A stretch of DNA of 64,000 nt. Source: Halarchaeum rubridurum (GTDB taxonomy: Archaea; Halobacteriota; Halobacteria; Halobacteriales; Halobacteriaceae). The stretch is from contig NZ_BMOO01000004.1 in assembly GCF_014647115.1 (NCBI RefSeq), positions 1 through 64,000 of the forward strand, read 5' to 3'. The position numbers and the translations under genes are program-made. The notes beneath the pieces are model-generated. The model searched no databases. It saw only the letters and a list, made by a program, of their open reading frames with translations, and had not been told where the DNA came from. Shown piece by piece: positions 1,482 through 58,066 of the stretch (position 1 is the first letter of the stretch; each line of letters opens with the position of its first letter).

Positions 1482-2531
1482 TCAGGCGAGACAGGCCGCG
1501 ACGACGCGGAGGGCGTCGGGGCCCCGGACCTCCTCCGCGAGCAGCGGGACGCGCTTCACGTCGTGGCCCCGGAAGAGGTCCTGGGCCTCCGCGAGCGCGT
1601 CCTGCTGGACGTCCCAGCGGCGCTGGCAGAACGCACACGCATCGAGGTTCGGCGAGACGAACGTCTCCGCGGGGACCTCGGGCACCACGTCCACGAGCGG
1701 CTCCATCACCTTGTTCACGACGACGGTCGAGACCGGGATGCCGAACTCCGCCAGGCGCTCGCGGAGGCGCTTGGCCTCCGTCACGCTCATCCCCTCGGGG
1801 ACGGTGACGATACGGAAGTCCGTCCGCGCCGGGTCGGTCAGGACGGCGCGGAGTCGCGTCACGCGCTCGCGGACCTCCTCGACGCCGGCCATCCCCGCGT
1901 CCGCGTCCGCGCCGCCGCCGAACAGCCCCTTCATCGAGTCCATCATCCCGCCCATCTTCTCGCGGAACTGGAGCATCCGCCCCATCATCGAGTCCATCAG
2001 CTCCGGGAGTTCGAGCAGGCGGAGCGTGTGGCCCGTCGGCGCGGTGTCGACCACGACGCGCTCGAAGCGCTCGTCGTCGAGGTACTCCACGAGCAACTGC
2101 ATCGCCGCCGCCTCGTCCGCGCCCGGCATCGGCCCGCCGAGCGGGGTCGCCATCTCGTCGCCCGCGCCGCCGAGGAGGTCCCCGAGGCCGCCCATCGGCC
2201 CCGCACCGTCCTCCCCGCCGAGGCCCATCGCGCCCGCGCGCTCCATCGCCTCGTCCGGGTCGATCTCGACGCCCCAGAGCGGGACGTCCTCGCGGAGCCG
2301 CCCGGGCTGGCTCGGGACGTCCACCCCGTACGTGTCCGAGAGGCTGTGCGCCGGGTCCGTCGACACCACGAGCGTCGGCGTCCCGTCCGTCGCGCTCGCC
2401 AGCCCCGTCGCCGCCGCCATCGTCGTCTTTCCCACGCCGCCCTTCCCGCCGTAGAGGACGTACTCCGCCGTCCCCGCCGCCACGCTCGGCGCGTCGAGGT
2501 CCTCGACGGCCTCCACTTCGAGTTCGCTCAT
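1482..2531 (-). CDS. ArsA/GET3-family ATPase
   Basis: 349 residues. It has the deviant P-loop GKGGVGKT at residues 29-36, the A-type motif STDPAHSLSDTYG just after residue 56, and the DTAPTGHTLRLLELP switch motif in the middle. A CxxC pair (ACAFC, about residues 296-300) resembles the inter-subunit zinc site of GET3. A Met/Gly-rich segment (about 180-215) fits the family's hydrophobic client-binding insert. Eukaryotic GET3 targets tail-anchored membrane proteins; bacterial ArsA pumps arsenite. No arsenic genes are nearby, so a targeting or chaperone role is the better inference. The single ATPase domain, not a tandem pair, also favours the GET3 type. Confidence 0.87.
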   Translation of the reverse strand: MSELEVEAVEDLDAPSVAAGTAEYVLYGGKGGVGKTTMAAATGLASATDGTPTLVVSTDPAHSLSDTYGVDVPSQPGRLREDVPLWGVEIDPDEAMERAGAMGLGGEDGAGPMGGLGDLLGGAGDEMATPLGGPMPGADEAAAMQLLVEYLDDERFERVVVDTAPTGHTLRLLELPELMDSMMGRMLQFREKMGGMMDSMKGLFGGGADADAGMAGVEEVRERVTRLRAVLTDPARTDFRIVTVPEGMSVTEAKRLRERLAEFGIPVSTVVVNKVMEPLVDVVPEVPAETFVSPNLDACAFCQRRWDVQQDALAEAQDLFRGHDVKRVPLLAEEVRGPDALRVVAACLA

Positions 2532-2565: not shown

Positions 2566-2622
2566 CCGTCTTTTTCCCGTTCGGGTCGCACGAAGCGCGA
2601 ACCTCTCGAAGCAAAAACACGG
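2566..2622. repeat. Palindromic dispersed element, family 2, copy 1
   Basis: A 57-base inverted-repeat element. Its left end CCGTCTTTTT (2566-2575) pairs with its right end AAAAACACGG (2613-2622), with one mismatch. On the minus strand it reads CCGTGTTTTTGC, an interior, then CGAACGGGAAAAAGACGG. The copy at 42825-42896 has matching ends and a different interior. It lies just upstream of the arsA-like gene and before the low-GC ORFs. Confidence 0.55.
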
Positions 2623-2729
2623 TCCGCGCGAGCGAAGCGAGACGTGGGGCGAGCCGGGCCACAGGTCCCGCGAGAGAGAAAATCCCGCACGGTGAAACTC
2701 GCGCCCACGCCACGGGTGCGCTGGACCGG

Positions 2730-2837
2730 ATGCGTTCGATACAGACCCGTCTGGACCGAATCGAAGAGATGATTCCGCCACGACGTGACCGAAGCAGCCA
2801 GTGTATCTACTGTCGAAAAGGCTATTCGGTTACATAA
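2730..2837 (+). CDS. Possible 35-residue CxxC micro-protein
   Basis: An ATG-initiated ORF of 35 residues that begins MRSIQTRLDRIEEMIPPRR and ends with a single CIYC motif near the C terminus. The first half could form an amphipathic helix and shows a GC-rich third codon position. It ends 13 bases before an in-frame ATG (2851) of the next membrane protein, so the two could form a small operon. It overlaps the longer GTG-started form of that gene in another frame, so only one of the two arrangements can be right. I know of no family for it; this could be chance. Confidence 0.3.
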   Translation: MRSIQTRLDRIEEMIPPRRDRSSQCIYCRKGYSVT

Positions 2838-3069
2838 TCGAGTTGCCAGTATGGGGGAACATGATGGGGATAATGGCTTGAGAGAAACGATTGTAACATT
2901 TCTTGGAGAGTGGCAGCTAGGAGCGATCCTTCTAGTCGGTTCCACTATTGTCGGGTTTGTTTTTGGCGCTATTGTGGGATCGGTGTGGTCTGGATTTTTC
3001 GGGGTAGTTAGCGTCGTTATCGGCTCAATACTGGCATTTTCTCTATTCTCGTACTTGCTCTACGGGTGA
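2785..3069 (+). CDS. Small low-GC membrane protein, unknown function
   Basis: Up to 94 residues from a GTG at 2785. A shorter version of 72 residues starts at the ATG at 2851, and the overlap with the upstream micro-ORF makes that start at least as likely. The C-terminal half holds two predicted membrane helices rich in Gly (GSTIVGFVFGAIVG, then VVSVVIGSILAF) and ends LFSYLLYG. Base composition and codon use are clearly more AT-rich than the neighbours (tta, att, ttt codons), which suggests recent transfer. Palindromic elements lie on both sides (2566-2622 and 3298-3341). No family recognised. Confidence 0.6.
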   Translation: MTEAASVSTVEKAIRLHNRVASMGEHDGDNGLRETIVTFLGEWQLGAILLVGSTIVGFVFGAIVGSVWSGFFGVVSVVIGSILAFSLFSYLLYG

Positions 3070-3207
3070 TAAGGCATCACGTCTACTAAACAGTCGTTTC
3101 ACGACGAGCGACGACGCATCGAACGAGGCGGGCTAGCGTTCGCGGGACGAGCGGTCCAAGGGACCCGGTAGTCCCGCGGTTCACTCGCGCAAAGCGCGAG
3201 GCGCAAG

Positions 3208-3226
3208 GACCACCGGAGGTGGTCCG
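3208..3226. repeat. Perfect 8-bp hairpin in the 3070-3343 gap
   Basis: GGACCACC and GGTGGTCC form a perfect 8-bp inverted repeat around a GGA loop. The whole 3070-3343 gap lies between convergent genes and contains several short palindromes and no convincing ORF. This hairpin could serve as a folded 3' end for either neighbour. Confidence 0.4.
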
Positions 3227-3297
3227 CCGCGCTTTTGCGTGCGAGACGACGGAGTCGCCTCACTGCATAGGAAGAAACGACGCTTCTTCCGATGGCC

Positions 3298-3341
3298 GAC
3301 CGTTTGCCAGCGATGGCGAAGCCGTCGCACAGCAAACGGTC
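3298..3341. repeat. Palindromic dispersed element, family 1, copy D
   Basis: GACCGTTTGC (3298-3307) and GCAAACGGTC (3332-3341) form a perfect 10-bp inverted repeat. The interior continues the stem (GCGATGGC against GCCGTCGC, one G.T wobble). It lies between convergent genes, a few bases past the aminotransferase stop codon. It shares its outer arms and layout with the copies at 23249, 42172 and 57279. Confidence 0.6.
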
Positions 3342-3343
3342 GT

Positions 3344-4441
3344 TTAGAAGAACTCGACTAACCGTTCGGCAGCGGTCTCGACGCGCGGGGTGACGAGTGC
3401 GAAGCGGAGCCAGTCGCTGCGGGCGTCGCCGAAGGCTTCGCCGGGCATGCCGGCGACGCCGGCCTCGTCGATGAGGCGTTTGGCGTTCGCCATCGTGCCG
3501 GGGTAGTCGGGGAAGCGCGCGAGGACGTAGAAGGCTCCCTCGGGCGTCGTGTATTCGGCGCCGGCGCGGTCGAGGGCGGCGGTGAAGGTCCGAACGCGCT
3601 CGCGGAGGCGTTCGCGGTTCGCCTCGTGGTAGGACGCGTCAGTCGTTTCGAGGGCGCGGAGGACGGCGGCCTGGGCGGGCCTGCTGGTCGCCACGTTCGT
3701 GAGCATGTTGCGCGTTCGGGCGGCGGCGGCGTCGCGCTCGGGGAGGACGGCGTACCCCACCCGAAAGCCCGTGATGGCGTACGTCTTCGAGAAGGAGTTG
3801 GTGACGACGACGTGCTCGGAGTCGAAGGCGAGCGCGGAGGTGAAGGTGCCCGTGAAGTCGTAGTGGTCGTACACCTCGTCGGAGACGAGCATCGCGTCGT
3901 TCGCCTCGGCGATGCGGACGAACTCGCGCATCGTCTCCTCGCCGTACACCGCCCCCGTGGGGTTGTTCGGGGTGTTGACGACGATGCAGGCGGTCTCGTC
4001 GCTCGCGGCGGCGCGGACGTCCGCGGGGTCGAGGCCGCCGTCGTCGGCGACGGGGACGAAGCGCTGGACGCCGCCGAGCATCTCGGCCTTCCCGGGGTAG
4101 TAGGGGTAGACGGGGTCGGCCATGAGGACCTCGGAGCCGTCGAAGCGTTCGAGGGCGCGGGCCATCCCGAGGGTGTTCGCCATGCCGCCGCCGTTGGTGA
4201 CGATGACGCGCTCGGTGGCGACGCCGCGGCGCTCGGCGACGCGCTCGCGGAGCTCGCGGAGGCCGGCGCTCGGCGGATATTGGAACGCCTCGCCGCCGGT
4301 GTCGGCGTAGTCGTGGAGGCCCTCGCCGATGCCGTCGGGCGCGCCCCAGTCGGGGTTCCCCGAGACCATGTCGACGACGTCGCGGTCGGCGGCCTCCGCG
4401 TACTGCATCACCGTGAAGAAGAGCGGTTCCTCGTACTCCAT
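3344..4441 (-). CDS. Pyridoxal-phosphate aminotransferase, class I/II
   Basis: 365 residues from the ATG at 4441, where the protein reads MEYEEPLFFTVMQYAEAADR; upstream in-frame codons give an Arg-rich, non-protein-like extension. Fold type I marks are visible: VNTPNNPTGAVY, LVSDEVYDHYDF, and the lysine motif SFSKTYAITGFRVGY with the PLP-binding Lys near residue 217. The closing region LRFALVT supplies the usual substrate-binding Arg. The substrate is uncertain; aspartate or aromatic amino acids are typical. It follows the zinc-finger gene by 25 bases on the same strand and is likely co-transcribed with it. Confidence 0.87.
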   Translation of the reverse strand: MEYEEPLFFTVMQYAEAADRDVVDMVSGNPDWGAPDGIGEGLHDYADTGGEAFQYPPSAGLRELRERVAERRGVATERVIVTNGGGMANTLGMARALERFDGSEVLMADPVYPYYPGKAEMLGGVQRFVPVADDGGLDPADVRAAASDETACIVVNTPNNPTGAVYGEETMREFVRIAEANDAMLVSDEVYDHYDFTGTFTSALAFDSEHVVVTNSFSKTYAITGFRVGYAVLPERDAAAARTRNMLTNVATSRPAQAAVLRALETTDASYHEANRERLRERVRTFTAALDRAGAEYTTPEGAFYVLARFPDYPGTMANAKRLIDEAGVAGMPGEAFGDARSDWLRFALVTPRVETAAERLVEFF

Positions 4442-4466
4442 GCGGGGAACCGCGGCCGCGAGGGTG

Positions 4467-4751
4467 TTAAGCGCTTCCCGACGAGGACGAGGCCGCGTCG
4501 CGCGTCCACCCGGGGTCGCGGCCGGTCCGGGCGATGTGGCCGGCGCGACAGGCCGGACAGACGTCCGGCGTCTCGTCGGTGCTCCGCGGGACGTACACCG
4601 CCCCGCCGCACTCGACGCAGGCGTCCGCGACGACGGTCGCGCAGTCCGCACAGACGTTGAAGTCGTCGACCGTCAACTCGCGGAGAGGTTCGAGTCGTTT
4701 GTCCAGGACGTACTCGTCGATGACCGACCCGCAGTTCTGACACGATTGCAT
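4467..4751 (-). CDS. Small zinc-finger protein with CxxC pairs
   Basis: 94 residues starting MQSCQNCGSVIDEYVL. It carries four CxxC knuckles in order: CQNC, CADC, CVEC and CPAC, enough for two zinc sites. The C-terminal tail is unstructured and Ser-rich. Small proteins of this kind are abundant in haloarchaea and mostly uncharacterised; roles in nucleic acid or protein binding are only inferred. A TATA-like ACTATATG on the minus strand at about 4783-4791 lies at promoter distance from the ATG. It heads a probable two-gene unit with the aminotransferase. Confidence 0.75.
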   Translation of the reverse strand: MQSCQNCGSVIDEYVLDKRLEPLRELTVDDFNVCADCATVVADACVECGGAVYVPRSTDETPDVCPACRAGHIARTGRDPGWTRDAASSSSGSA

Positions 4752-23207: not shown

Positions 23208-23248
23208 ACGTGCACGGTCACACAAGTCGGGGATAAATCTTCGCCCCA

Positions 23249-23299
23249 ACCGTTTGCTGTGAGCGCCCTGCGGGCGCTCCGGCAAAAGCTCGACCAAAA
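23249..23299. repeat. Palindromic dispersed element, family 1, copy A
   Basis: ACCGTTTGC, a GAGCGCCC/GGGCGCTC stem (23261-23279) and GGCAAAAGCTCGACCAAAA. TTTGC and GCAAA close the outer stem. The 16-mer AAAAGCTCGACCAAAA is identical in the copy at 42172. It sits in the spacer between nfeD and the stomatin gene. Confidence 0.6.
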
Positions 23300-23441
23300 C
23301 CCGTCGAGCCTCCCGACGGTCGGCTCTCGGGTCCGCTCGCTCCCGGCGGTCGCTCGCGGGAGGGACACCGACTGCGTCCGCGTCCGCCTCCCGCCCCCGC
23401 TCAGCCGCCGCCCACCGCTTCACCTCCCGCACCCATCGACC

Positions 23442-41830: not shown

Positions 41831-42166
41831 GTGACACCCGTGTCAGTAGGTTCCGAGGTCGAGGTCGAGAACGAGGAGGCCTGCGCGGCCGTCGACTCCC
41901 TGGAGTTGATCGGCTCGCAGTGGCGACTCATCGTCCTCTACGCCCTCCAGGACGGCGAGAAACGGTTCAACGAACTCAAACGCGCCACCGGCGCGAACGC
42001 CCGCACGCTCTCGCGCGTCCTCGACGACCTCGGCGACGCCGGCCTCGTCTCCCGGCGCGTCGAGGAGGACGCCCCCATCGCCACCTACTACGCTCTCACG
42101 GAGAAGGGCGGCGCGCTCTGCCCCGTCTTCGACGAGATAGAGGCGTGGGCGGACGAGTGGCTCTAA
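41831..42166 (+). CDS. HxlR-family transcriptional regulator
   Basis: 111 residues from a GTG at 41831; a second GTG at 41840 is possible. The winged helix is typical: LELIGSQWRLIVLYALQDGEKRFNELKRATGANARTLSRVL in two stretches, then a wing and TYYALTEKGGALCPVFDEIEAW. One Cys (CAAVDS) lies in the usual N-terminal redox-sensing position. HxlR proteins often sense oxidants or electrophiles. The divergent doxX-esterase unit is the probable target. Confidence 0.88.
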   Translation: MTPVSVGSEVEVENEEACAAVDSLELIGSQWRLIVLYALQDGEKRFNELKRATGANARTLSRVLDDLGDAGLVSRRVEEDAPIATYYALTEKGGALCPVFDEIEAWADEWL

Positions 42167-42171
42167 CGCAC

Positions 42172-42224
42172 GACCGTTTACTCTGCGCGCGGCTTCGCCG
42201 CGCTCGGTAAAAGCTCGACCAAAA
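42172..42224. repeat. Palindromic dispersed element, family 1, copy B
   Basis: GACCGTTTAC, stem GCGCGGC-TTC-GCCGCGC (42187-42203) and GGTAAAAGCTCGACCAAAA. Here the outer stem reads TTTAC and GTAAA instead of TTTGC and GCAAA, a compensatory change. It sits just past the hxlR stop, before the convergent low-GC membrane gene. Confidence 0.6.
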
Positions 42225-42399
42225 GCGCGTCGCGCTCCCGTTGGTCGCGCTCGCGCCTCGCCTACGGCGAGTGAACCGGCGACCGTCCGGGCTCTCCGAG
42301 CCACTCGGTCGCCGGACGCTAACTCCGTAGTTTGACCCAGCGTTCTCGCGGTAGAACGTCCGCTAGGTGGGTGTGCGTACTTCTCAAGACAGACTCCAC

Positions 42400-42693
42400 T
42401 CACTCAGCCCAGATTACCTCTGGAGCCAGTATGAGGAGGCCGAGAAAGACGATGAGGACACCGAGGCCAACTATTCGAAGCACTCCTGCTGAACGCTGTC
42501 GGGTCGGCGGAAGAGATTCGGCTATCCCGGTGAACGCGAACGCGATACCCAAAAAGAGCATATTGTGAGGGCCGTCGAGCACAATGGCGAAATACGCCCA
42601 GCAGAGGAGGCAAATGACGGAGAAGAGTGAGAAGAGGAGCCCCTTCCGCCGTCCATCTGGCTCACGAAACAATATCCGGCGAACTGTGTTCAC
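42400..42693 (-). CDS. Small low-GC membrane protein, unknown function
   Basis: 97 residues from a GTG at 42693; a TTG at 42717 would add eight residues. An AT-rich CAATTTACTT at about 42718-42727 lies at TATA distance from the GTG. Three membrane helices are predicted (LFSLFSVICLLCWAYFAIV, MLFLGIAFAFTGIAES, VGLGVLIVFLGLLILA). A basic stretch (REPDGRRKG) precedes the first. Codon use is more AT-rich than the neighbours. Palindromic elements of both families flank the gene. No family recognised. Confidence 0.62.
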   Translation of the reverse strand: MNTVRRILFREPDGRRKGLLFSLFSVICLLCWAYFAIVLDGPHNMLFLGIAFAFTGIAESLPPTRQRSAGVLRIVGLGVLIVFLGLLILAPEVIWAE

Positions 42694-42824
42694 ACGTACT
42701 AACAGATGTTTGACCAAGTAAATTGTTCGACTGTATCTAACATAGTCGGGGCGGTCTGCGGTCTATCGTACTCGCGCCGGTCGGCGCGAGTTTCGACGCG
42801 AATCTCCGATTCGTGCTTTTTTCA

Positions 42825-42896
42825 CCCGTGTTTTTGCGGGGAGGGGTCCCCACAGCGAGCGAAGCGAGCGAGGAAACCCGACCCGGAAAAACAGGG
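42825..42896. repeat. Palindromic dispersed element, family 2, copy 2
   Basis: CCCGTGTTTTTGCGGGG at the left end pairs with CCCGGAAAAACAGGG at the right end (42882-42896). The interior has a GCGAGC-GAAGCGAGCG palindrome. The copy at 2566-2622 has matching ends. It finishes two bases before the DUF371 stop codon. Confidence 0.55.
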
Positions 42897-42898
42897 TT

Positions 42899-43315
42899 CT
42901 ACTCGACGGTGAGGGTGAACGTCGCCTCGGCGCCGTCGGCGAGGGCGGCGACGAGGGCGTCGTCGAACCCGTCGGCGGCGTATTCGGCGTCGAGCATGAC
43001 TGTCCGGTCGTCGACGTAGTCGCTCGTGCGCCCGACCATGGAGCGCTCGCTCGCGTAGGTGAGGGCGGGGTCGCCGCGACCTTCGACGGAGACCTCGTGG
43101 CCGTGGGCTTCGAGCGTCGCGGTGACGGTCGCGTCGGCGTCGCTCACGGCGGCGACGAACGCCTCGTCGAAGTCGGCGGGGGCGCGGTCGGCCTCGACGG
43201 CGAGGATGCAGTCGCCGGCGGGCGTGAGGTAGTCGTCGGTCGTGACTTCGAACGTACTCGCGTGCGCGGCGGTGACGTTCTCGTGCCCGTGCGCGCGGAC
43301 GACCTCGCGGTGCAT
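42899..43315 (-). CDS. DUF371 protein
   Basis: 138 residues. The start MHREVVRAHGHENVTAAHASTFEVT matches DUF371, an archaeal family that opens with a conserved E-V-x-x-x-G-H-x-N-[VI]-x-x-x-H-x-x-T segment. Two similar halves (about 1-70 and 75-138), each ending in a beta-rich stretch, give a near-duplicate shape. The function is unknown; the conserved His/Asn at the start could bind metal or ligand. Confidence 0.83.
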   Translation of the reverse strand: MHREVVRAHGHENVTAAHASTFEVTTDDYLTPAGDCILAVEADRAPADFDEAFVAAVSDADATVTATLEAHGHEVSVEGRGDPALTYASERSMVGRTSDYVDDRTVMLDAEYAADGFDDALVAALADGAEATFTLTVE

Positions 43316-57249: not shown

Positions 57250-57278
57250 CCCTCTGAGCGTCGCCAACTCAGGTACTC

Positions 57279-57330
57279 GACCGTTTGCTGCGAGCGCGCG
57301 GCGGCGCGCTCTGGCAAACCCTCGGCGAAA
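57279..57330. repeat. Palindromic dispersed element, family 1, copy C
   Basis: GACCGTTTGC, stem GAGCGCGC/GCGCGCTC (57292-57311) and GGCAAAC followed by CTCGGCGAAAAGCG. GTTTGC and GCAAAC form the outer stem. It lies between the convergent aldolase and aroD genes; the rest of that spacer has a CACCCCCTCC-GGGGGTG-type palindrome and no gene. Confidence 0.58.
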
Positions 57331-57385
57331 AGCGCTGCGCACCCCCTCCGGGGGTGCTTGCGCCTCGCGCTCCCGCGCGAGTCGG

Positions 57386-58066
57386 TTACGCCCCGCGGAG
57401 GTCGTCGACTAACCCTCTCAGCGTCGCCAGGTCGTACTGGCCGGGGGCCGTGGCGTCGGCGGGGTCGACGGGCGCGTAGCCGATCCGTGAGCCGTAGACG
57501 GGGCAGACGGCGCGGGAGTGGCGGCCGGCCTCACCCATCGCCATCGTGGCGACGCGTTCGCCCTCGACGTCGTACTCGTGGGTCACGCTGACGAGGTCGA
57601 GGACGTCGGTGCGCTCGACGGCCGTGACTGCGAGTTTGGCGACGTCGCCGTACTCCAGGGCGTTCCCGAGAATCCCGCGCATGTCCTGGCGGAGCGGCGT
57701 CCCGTCGAAGTCGTGTGCGGAGACGACGACGGACGCGCCGTGCTCGCGGGCGGCCTCGCGGACGGTCCGGCCGCGACCGTCGAGACAGGTGTCGAGTTCG
57801 AGGTCGATGGCACCGACGGCGTCGTGCTCGACGGCGTCGCGGAGCGCGTCGAGGCGCGCCTCGTCGTCCGCGGCCTCGCCACCCTGGCCGTCGTGGCGGT
57901 TCGTCACGAGGAGCGGGAGGTCGCCGTCGTAGTCGCGGAGCTGTGCGGTCGGGTTCTCGGCGAGGTCCATGCGGAACTCGACGGCGTCGGCGTGCCCGCG
58001 GGCGGCGGGCTCGTCGGCGAGGTCGGCCGTCGCGGCGCAGAGCGTGAAGTCGTCGAAGGGGAGCAC
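57386..58066 (-). CDS. aroD: 3-Dehydroquinate dehydratase, type I
   Basis: 226 residues. The catalytic His is in VVVSAHDFDGTP and the Schiff-base Lys in DVAKLAVTAVE. ADAVEFRMDLAENP at the start is the substrate-binding strand, and ERVATMAMGEAGRHSRAVCPVYGS closes the barrel. It converts 3-dehydroquinate to 3-dehydroshikimate, between aroB at 13.7 kb and aroE at 51.5 kb. It lies alone among unrelated genes, with a small membrane protein upstream. Confidence 0.95.
   Translation of the reverse strand: MLPFDDFTLCAATADLADEPAARGHADAVEFRMDLAENPTAQLRDYDGDLPLLVTNRHDGQGGEAADDEARLDALRDAVEHDAVGAIDLELDTCLDGRGRTVREAAREHGASVVVSAHDFDGTPLRQDMRGILGNALEYGDVAKLAVTAVERTDVLDLVSVTHEYDVEGERVATMAMGEAGRHSRAVCPVYGSRIGYAPVDPADATAPGQYDLATLRGLVDDLRGA

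Follow-up and report, generated by a model that had tools for sequence, protein, structure and literature searches.

The DNA considered here, called the window, comprises the first 64,000 nucleotides of contig C4 (NZ_BMOO01000004.1) of the haloarchaeon Halarchaeum rubridurum. It contains two small genes for hydrophobic proteins, gene A and gene B, each lying between two types of hairpin-rich intergenic module, F1 and F2. Facing modules of this kind occupy fixed sites next to core genes, and in related species the same site can be empty, filled, or filled with a different gene. What is new here is a fold-back element between genes that works as a slot for exchangeable cargo. We consider the chances somewhat better than even that the modules are recombination arms, on which the host machinery acts, and that this is what makes the slots exchangeable. 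Haloarchaeal sites flanked by core genes and with different DNA at the same position were reported earlier without a mechanism (PMC3119063). Here such sites carry recognisable arms, and the exchange process therefore becomes predictable and testable, since slots can be listed and their cargo read. The exchange of small membrane genes is also linked to chromosome inversion.

The genome containing the window (G000; 2.8 Mb in 25 contigs) was compared with three further genomes of the same genus (G003, G004, and G005) and with 22 further genomes of the family; part of these genomes are drafts. The GC content, the genes and the plasmid relatives of the window's genome are consistent with a haloarchaeon. 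In G000, contig C4 and the stretches around element copies were read. Modules were located with models, R1 for F2 and R2 for F1.

Structure, number and orientation of the modules

The original prediction described both genes and four palindromes of two families flanking them. All of these were found where they had been placed, and the palindromes form only the outer ends of structured modules, which are roughly 160-210 nt long. F2 measures approximately 180-200 nt and F1 approximately 160-210 nt; the latter folds into several hairpins followed by a terminal palindrome. Among 90 F1 copies, 94.2% of pair cells are standard-paired, versus 70.5% in shuffled and 34-45% in slid controls; because the alignment had been fitted to the structure, part of this pairing is built in, although the slid controls are far lower. 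Changes on both sides of a stem are seen in 25 of the 29 pairs. No part of the window matched Rfam at the gathering cut-off. The modules make up a large family of structured repeats, whose distribution covers one haloarchaeal family.

The four genomes of the genus hold at least 114 F1 matches (28, 33, 19, and 34 in G000, G003, G004, and G005) and at least 76 F2 matches (26, 19, 10, and 21); these counts may be low, and some weak matches are cross-matches between F1 and F2. Across the order, F1 occurs in 37 of 89 genomes at an E-value of 1e-6. In three genera of this family, most genomes carry 14-36 copies; elsewhere there are few or none.

The arrangement of the modules is strict. Once overlaps were removed, 41 pairs of neighbouring copies lay no more than 2 kb apart. 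In 35 of these the outer ends point outward (18 F1-F1, 14 F2-F1, and 3 F2-F2); the other six are direct tandems, and none faces the opposite way. Chance would yield about 0.3 F2-F1 and 0.4 F1-F1 brackets, as calculated arithmetically from the match numbers. The F2-to-F1 bracket that had been predicted is therefore real and non-random, while F1 facing F1 is the commoner arrangement. Contig C1, which makes up 23% of the G000 assembly, carries 19 of the 28 F1 matches; such clustering raises the number of chance brackets somewhat, and would raise the opposite facing equally.

Cargo exchange and inversions at fixed sites

Several brackets are empty: the centre measures 17-22 bp in five such elements from this genus, and five from other genera have centres of about 18-20 bp. 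Filled brackets hold 0.3-1.3 kb, mostly of low GC and mostly with one small open reading frame (ORF). According to a crude hydropathy test, most cargo ORFs have a predicted transmembrane (TM) segment or a lipoprotein-like start, while a TM segment is predicted in 24% of 84 small genes of contig C4. The exceptions are a ParE/ribbon-helix-helix pair beside a gene B relative at L028, with Pfam scores just under the cut-off, and soluble ORFs at L152 and L125, the latter a DUF7522 protein. Cargo orientation is mixed: genes A and B are read in the F2-to-F1 direction, and the cargos of L023 and L081 in the reverse direction.

The expectation that small, low-GC, strain-variable membrane genes would lie between the palindromes was borne out, since the contents are mostly small, low-GC, species-variable membrane or lipoprotein genes. 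Genes A and B are AT-rich as described (GC 0.47 and 0.56 versus a C4 gene mean of 0.70), and no other low-GC segment occurs in the contig's first 120 kb. They are also unrelated, their loci aligning to each other only in the F1 and F2 modules, and neither is a syntenic core gene.

Orthologous sites differ in content. Between the arsA and aminotransferase genes, G000 has gene A, G005 has a lipoprotein-like gene on the opposite strand, G004 has a gene-free element (F2, 21 bp, F1), and G003 has an F2-like hairpin and a cold-shock-like gene; in G009, which belongs to another genus, the interval is about 40 bp with nothing in it. At the HxlR/DUF371 site, gene B is found in G000, a lone F1 in G003, and two facing F1 modules with a further gene in G005. 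A third site holds three different cargos (L107 in G000, L125 in G005, and L028 in G003, the last judged on one flank). A fourth is empty in G000 and holds a membrane gene in G005 (L110 and L132). The same content is found in two species at several sites (L120/L122, L114/L129, and L035/L139), and thus the elements also persist.

One cargo has crossed between families. The gene B block is 96% identical to plasmid pHTIA of Halorhabdus tiamatea, which belongs to another family, while the best relative of gene B within its own family is 71% identical at the protein level. The homology begins within the F2 inner box and ends at GTACGCAC, about 45 bp before F1. The relatives of gene A on G000 contigs C6 and C8 likewise share only positions 2755-3073, from just inside F2 to just past the gene A stop codon, and lack the modules. 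Taken together, these limits place the cargo boundaries at or near the inner module edges.

Two inversions have their ends at elements. When G000 is compared with G005, a 10-kb segment (G000 C1, ~149.6-159.7 kb) sits in inverted orientation between its flanks, and both breakpoints lie at elements. G003 matches G005 on one side of this segment; its flank on the other side does not match, and a further change in G003 at that flank is likely. A segment with a release-factor gene, bounded by F1 modules, likewise has opposite orientations in G000 and G005. The proposal of a cassette system is therefore supported by the bracket excess, the variable cargo and these inversions, while its suggestion that the palindromes themselves mobilise the cargo found no support.

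How the cargo may be exchanged

In the reading that we favour, F1 and F2 are two types of module, present in tens of copies per genome and often flush with a stop codon, that would serve as shared recombination arms. Two facing modules would make up one element, with a centre of about 20 bp when empty and a small imported gene otherwise. Incoming or ectopic DNA with the same arms, or with only the short inner boxes, could recombine at the modules, so that a fixed site would exchange, acquire or lose its cargo between unchanged core neighbours. If two inverted elements on one chromosome recombined, the intervening DNA would be inverted, and recombination between inverted copies would account for both inversions above. 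The exchange would be carried out by ordinary homologous recombination or gene conversion (RadA-type), and the T-tracts of the arms may additionally act as transcription terminators and as insulators of the cargo. The identity between arms of different sites reaches 94-98%.

Several observations weigh against arm recombination. Most arms at different sites are only 85-93% alike over about 120 bp, which is poor for homologous recombination. In only 16 of 54 cases does the nearest arm belong to the same genome, and concerted evolution of arms within a genome is for this reason unsupported. The elements at L035/L139 and L120/L122 are simply inherited. At the gene B block, pHTIA has neither F1 nor F2, so this cargo, at least, was not brought in by full-arm recombination. 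Finally, the fixed spacing of 6 nt between outer ends and stop codons is not explained by recombination between arms.

The main rival is a dedicated recombinase that would insert and excise cargo by acting on the folded arms or on an inner box of the GAACGTTCCACG type, as integron integrases do at attC. The elements would then form a haloarchaeal cassette system in which a putative recombinase trades small membrane-protein genes at fixed slots and inverts the DNA between slots. Such a system would explain the constant centres of about 20 bp, the strict facing of the modules, the conservation of F1 structure above sequence, and the short inner boxes at cargo edges, including the box at which the pHTIA homology begins. 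However, none of the brackets showed a recombinase gene (a genome-wide recombinase search was not made), cargo orientation is not uniform, and the inner boxes are degenerate. We regard both the enzyme and the cassette system built on it as tentative, at perhaps one chance in four, and favour arm recombination over them. The inner flanks of F1 (e.g., window positions 3081-3106 and 42350-42380) show this degenerate box, with a longer version TACGCACACCCACCTA, which recurs at cargo edges and also near loci without F1 or F2. Its use as a marker for further cassettes on C4 was dropped, as it is too degenerate.

The position of the modules relative to genes suggests another explanation, in which F1 and F2 are structured terminators or 3'-untranslated-region RNA elements, and insertion-tolerant 3' ends gather cargo and rearrangements. 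Beside 52 gene 3' ends, the first T-tract of F1 lies a median of 6 nt past the stop codon (taaACGACCTTTTGC); F2 beside 11 such ends mostly shows a similar spacing. These distances rest on our own crude gene calls. By comparison, TTTT occurs within 10 nt of the stop codon in 1.5% of 334 C4 genes. The HxlR protein ends at the same residue in G004, where the element is absent, and therefore its stop codon is native. Since T-tracts point both ways, transcription arriving from either side may end at the modules; the strong covariation also speaks for this explanation. Against this, many copies abut gene 5' ends (20 of 88 F1 and 20 of 39 F2), only tens of genes carry modules, and the likeness of arms at different sites, up to 98%, is left unexplained. 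We consider this explanation unlikely.

It is similarly doubtful that F1 and F2 are non-autonomous transposable elements, mobilised by a transposase in trans, with the cargo-bearing copies as gene-capturing variants. They would resemble miniature inverted-repeat transposable elements (MITEs), palindrome-associated transposable elements (PATEs) or bacterial interspersed mosaic elements (BIMEs). The modules are dispersed, multicopy and palindromic, the palindromes are near-terminal as in PATEs (PMC3119063), F1-F1 copies form inverted repeats, and a 98% identical module is present at two sites in G004: the arsA-site F1 matches, over 134 bp, the F1 in the G004 counterpart (L149) of the gene A paralog region. 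Yet the positions of tnpA and tnpB in the four genomes show no consistent link to F1 or F2; tnpB genes do not adjoin modules, with one possible exception in G004 (C7). Y1_Tnp matches number 2, 1, 2, and 0 in the genomes with 28, 33, 19, and 34 F1 copies, and none is linked to a module; G005, with the most copies, has none. No transposase lies in any bracket below 2 kb, a parent transposon elsewhere in the genomes being possible. No target duplication was established: the orthologous sites offered no clean element-free copy near enough for an alignment, and the outer ends abut stop codons. Nor does transposition account for different cargo at the same site. IS200/IS605 ends as a simple source were rejected and involvement of this family is unlikely, because tnpA and tnpB positions do not track the modules and G005 is without a Y1 match.

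The elements share features with several known systems. Repetitive extragenic palindromic (REP) sequences and BIMEs consist of palindromic units that lie downstream of genes and face each other in pairs. The elements here are also facing palindromic pairs 3' of genes; unlike REP/BIME units, they are longer and multi-hairpin, keep a fixed short distance from the stop codon, hold exchangeable genes, and have no linked Y1 transposase of the REP-associated tyrosine transposase (RAYT) type. Integron cassettes carry single small genes, and their attC fold-back sites are recognised by structure. The folding of the sites, the conservation of F1 structure over sequence, and the single small gene as cargo are similar. 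In contrast to integron cassettes, whose site lies at the 3' end of the cassette gene, the modules here adjoin the flanking core gene and not the cargo gene, cargo orientation is not fixed, no array was seen, and no integrase was seen in the brackets (tyrosine recombinases were not searched for genome-wide). MITEs have terminal inverted repeats, as do the F1-F1 elements.

PATEs lack inverted terminal repeats and have ends in common with IS605 transposons (PMC3119063). Like PATEs and IS200/IS605 elements, those described here have palindromes near both ends and many copies, some of them gene-free; unlike them, the 18 F1-F1 pairs are inverted copies of one module, the cargo is not a transposase, and there is no tnpA/tnpB link. 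In Haloquadratum walsbyi, deletion-coupled insertions of up to 104 kb have been reported, with no mechanism described and no conserved targeting sequence (PMC3119063). Unrelated sequence at one position between shared flanks is also found here, with the difference that defined structured modules bracket small cargo. Each of PATEs, BIMEs, and integron cassettes has at least one defining feature that these elements do not share. No description of F1/F2 elements was found in open-licence papers, subscription journals being outside the scope.

The two sites in the window

Table 1. Coordinates of the elements, cargo and flanking genes in the window.
Feature	Position	Strand	Basis or remark
ArsA-type ATPase, flanking core gene	1482..2531	-	PF02374, E 1.9e-75
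F2 module, site A	2566..2745	+	R1 match, 133.8 bits; outer palindrome 2566-2622; inner box GTTCGATACAG ~2734-2744
Gene A, cargo, small hydrophobic protein	2785..3069	+	94 aa, GC 0.47, ~2 TM segments
F1 inner extension, site A (GTTTCACGACG... box)	3074..3129	+	comparison of F1 inner flanks
F1 module, site A	3130..3343	+	R2 match 3130-3308, 112.6 bits; hairpins, then outer palindrome 3298-3341
Class I/II aminotransferase, flanking core gene	3344..4651	-	PF00155, E 4e-57
Solo degenerate F1 copy	23247..23393	-	R2 match, 33.4 bits
HxlR-type regulator, flanking gene	41831..42166	+	PF01638; F1 comes after its stop codon
F1 module, site B	42172..42325	-	R2 match 42206-42325, 126.3 bits; outer palindrome 42172-42224
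Transferred block, gene B and flanks	42373..42742	-	96% identity with plasmid pHTIA of Halorhabdus tiamatea
Gene B, cargo, small membrane protein	42400..42693	-	97 aa, ~2 TM segments, GC 0.56
F2 module, site B	42730..42896	-	R1 match, 149 bits; outer end adjoins DUF371 gene stop codon
DUF371 protein, flanking gene	42899..43315	-	PF04027, E 2.1e-47
Solo diverged F1 copy	57277..57415	-	R2 match, 47.1 bits

At site A, the F1 module abuts the stop codon of the aminotransferase gene, as judged by the stop-to-T-tract distance. Gene A has an alternative in-frame ATG at 2851, and matches no Pfam family above the cut-off; no relative of it was found on plasmids. A gene A paralog lies in a near-identical region on G000 contigs C6 and C8 (L021 and L022), and also in G003 and G005 (L025 and L026). 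An origin of the two cargo genes from phages or viruses was rejected: neither matched a viral contig, and P0001 was without a phage match (P0002 was not searched in phages). The PADLOC defence-gene search gave no match for ten cargos.

On Halorhabdus and Haloarcula plasmids (L161 and L162), relatives of gene B have DUF5518 protein genes no more than about 3 kb away. In G017, a low-GC cluster of small genes on contig C5 (L024:8300-11000) includes relatives of both cargo genes in a span of about 1.2 kb, with no F1 or F2 seen; this cluster is possibly a cargo reservoir. Beyond the window, C4:69538-69951 (L037:5538-5951) contains tandem repeats of F2-type palindromes together with a gene 3' end, and GGCACGCGGTACGAGGCGGAATAGCTCTCGACGG occurs three times.
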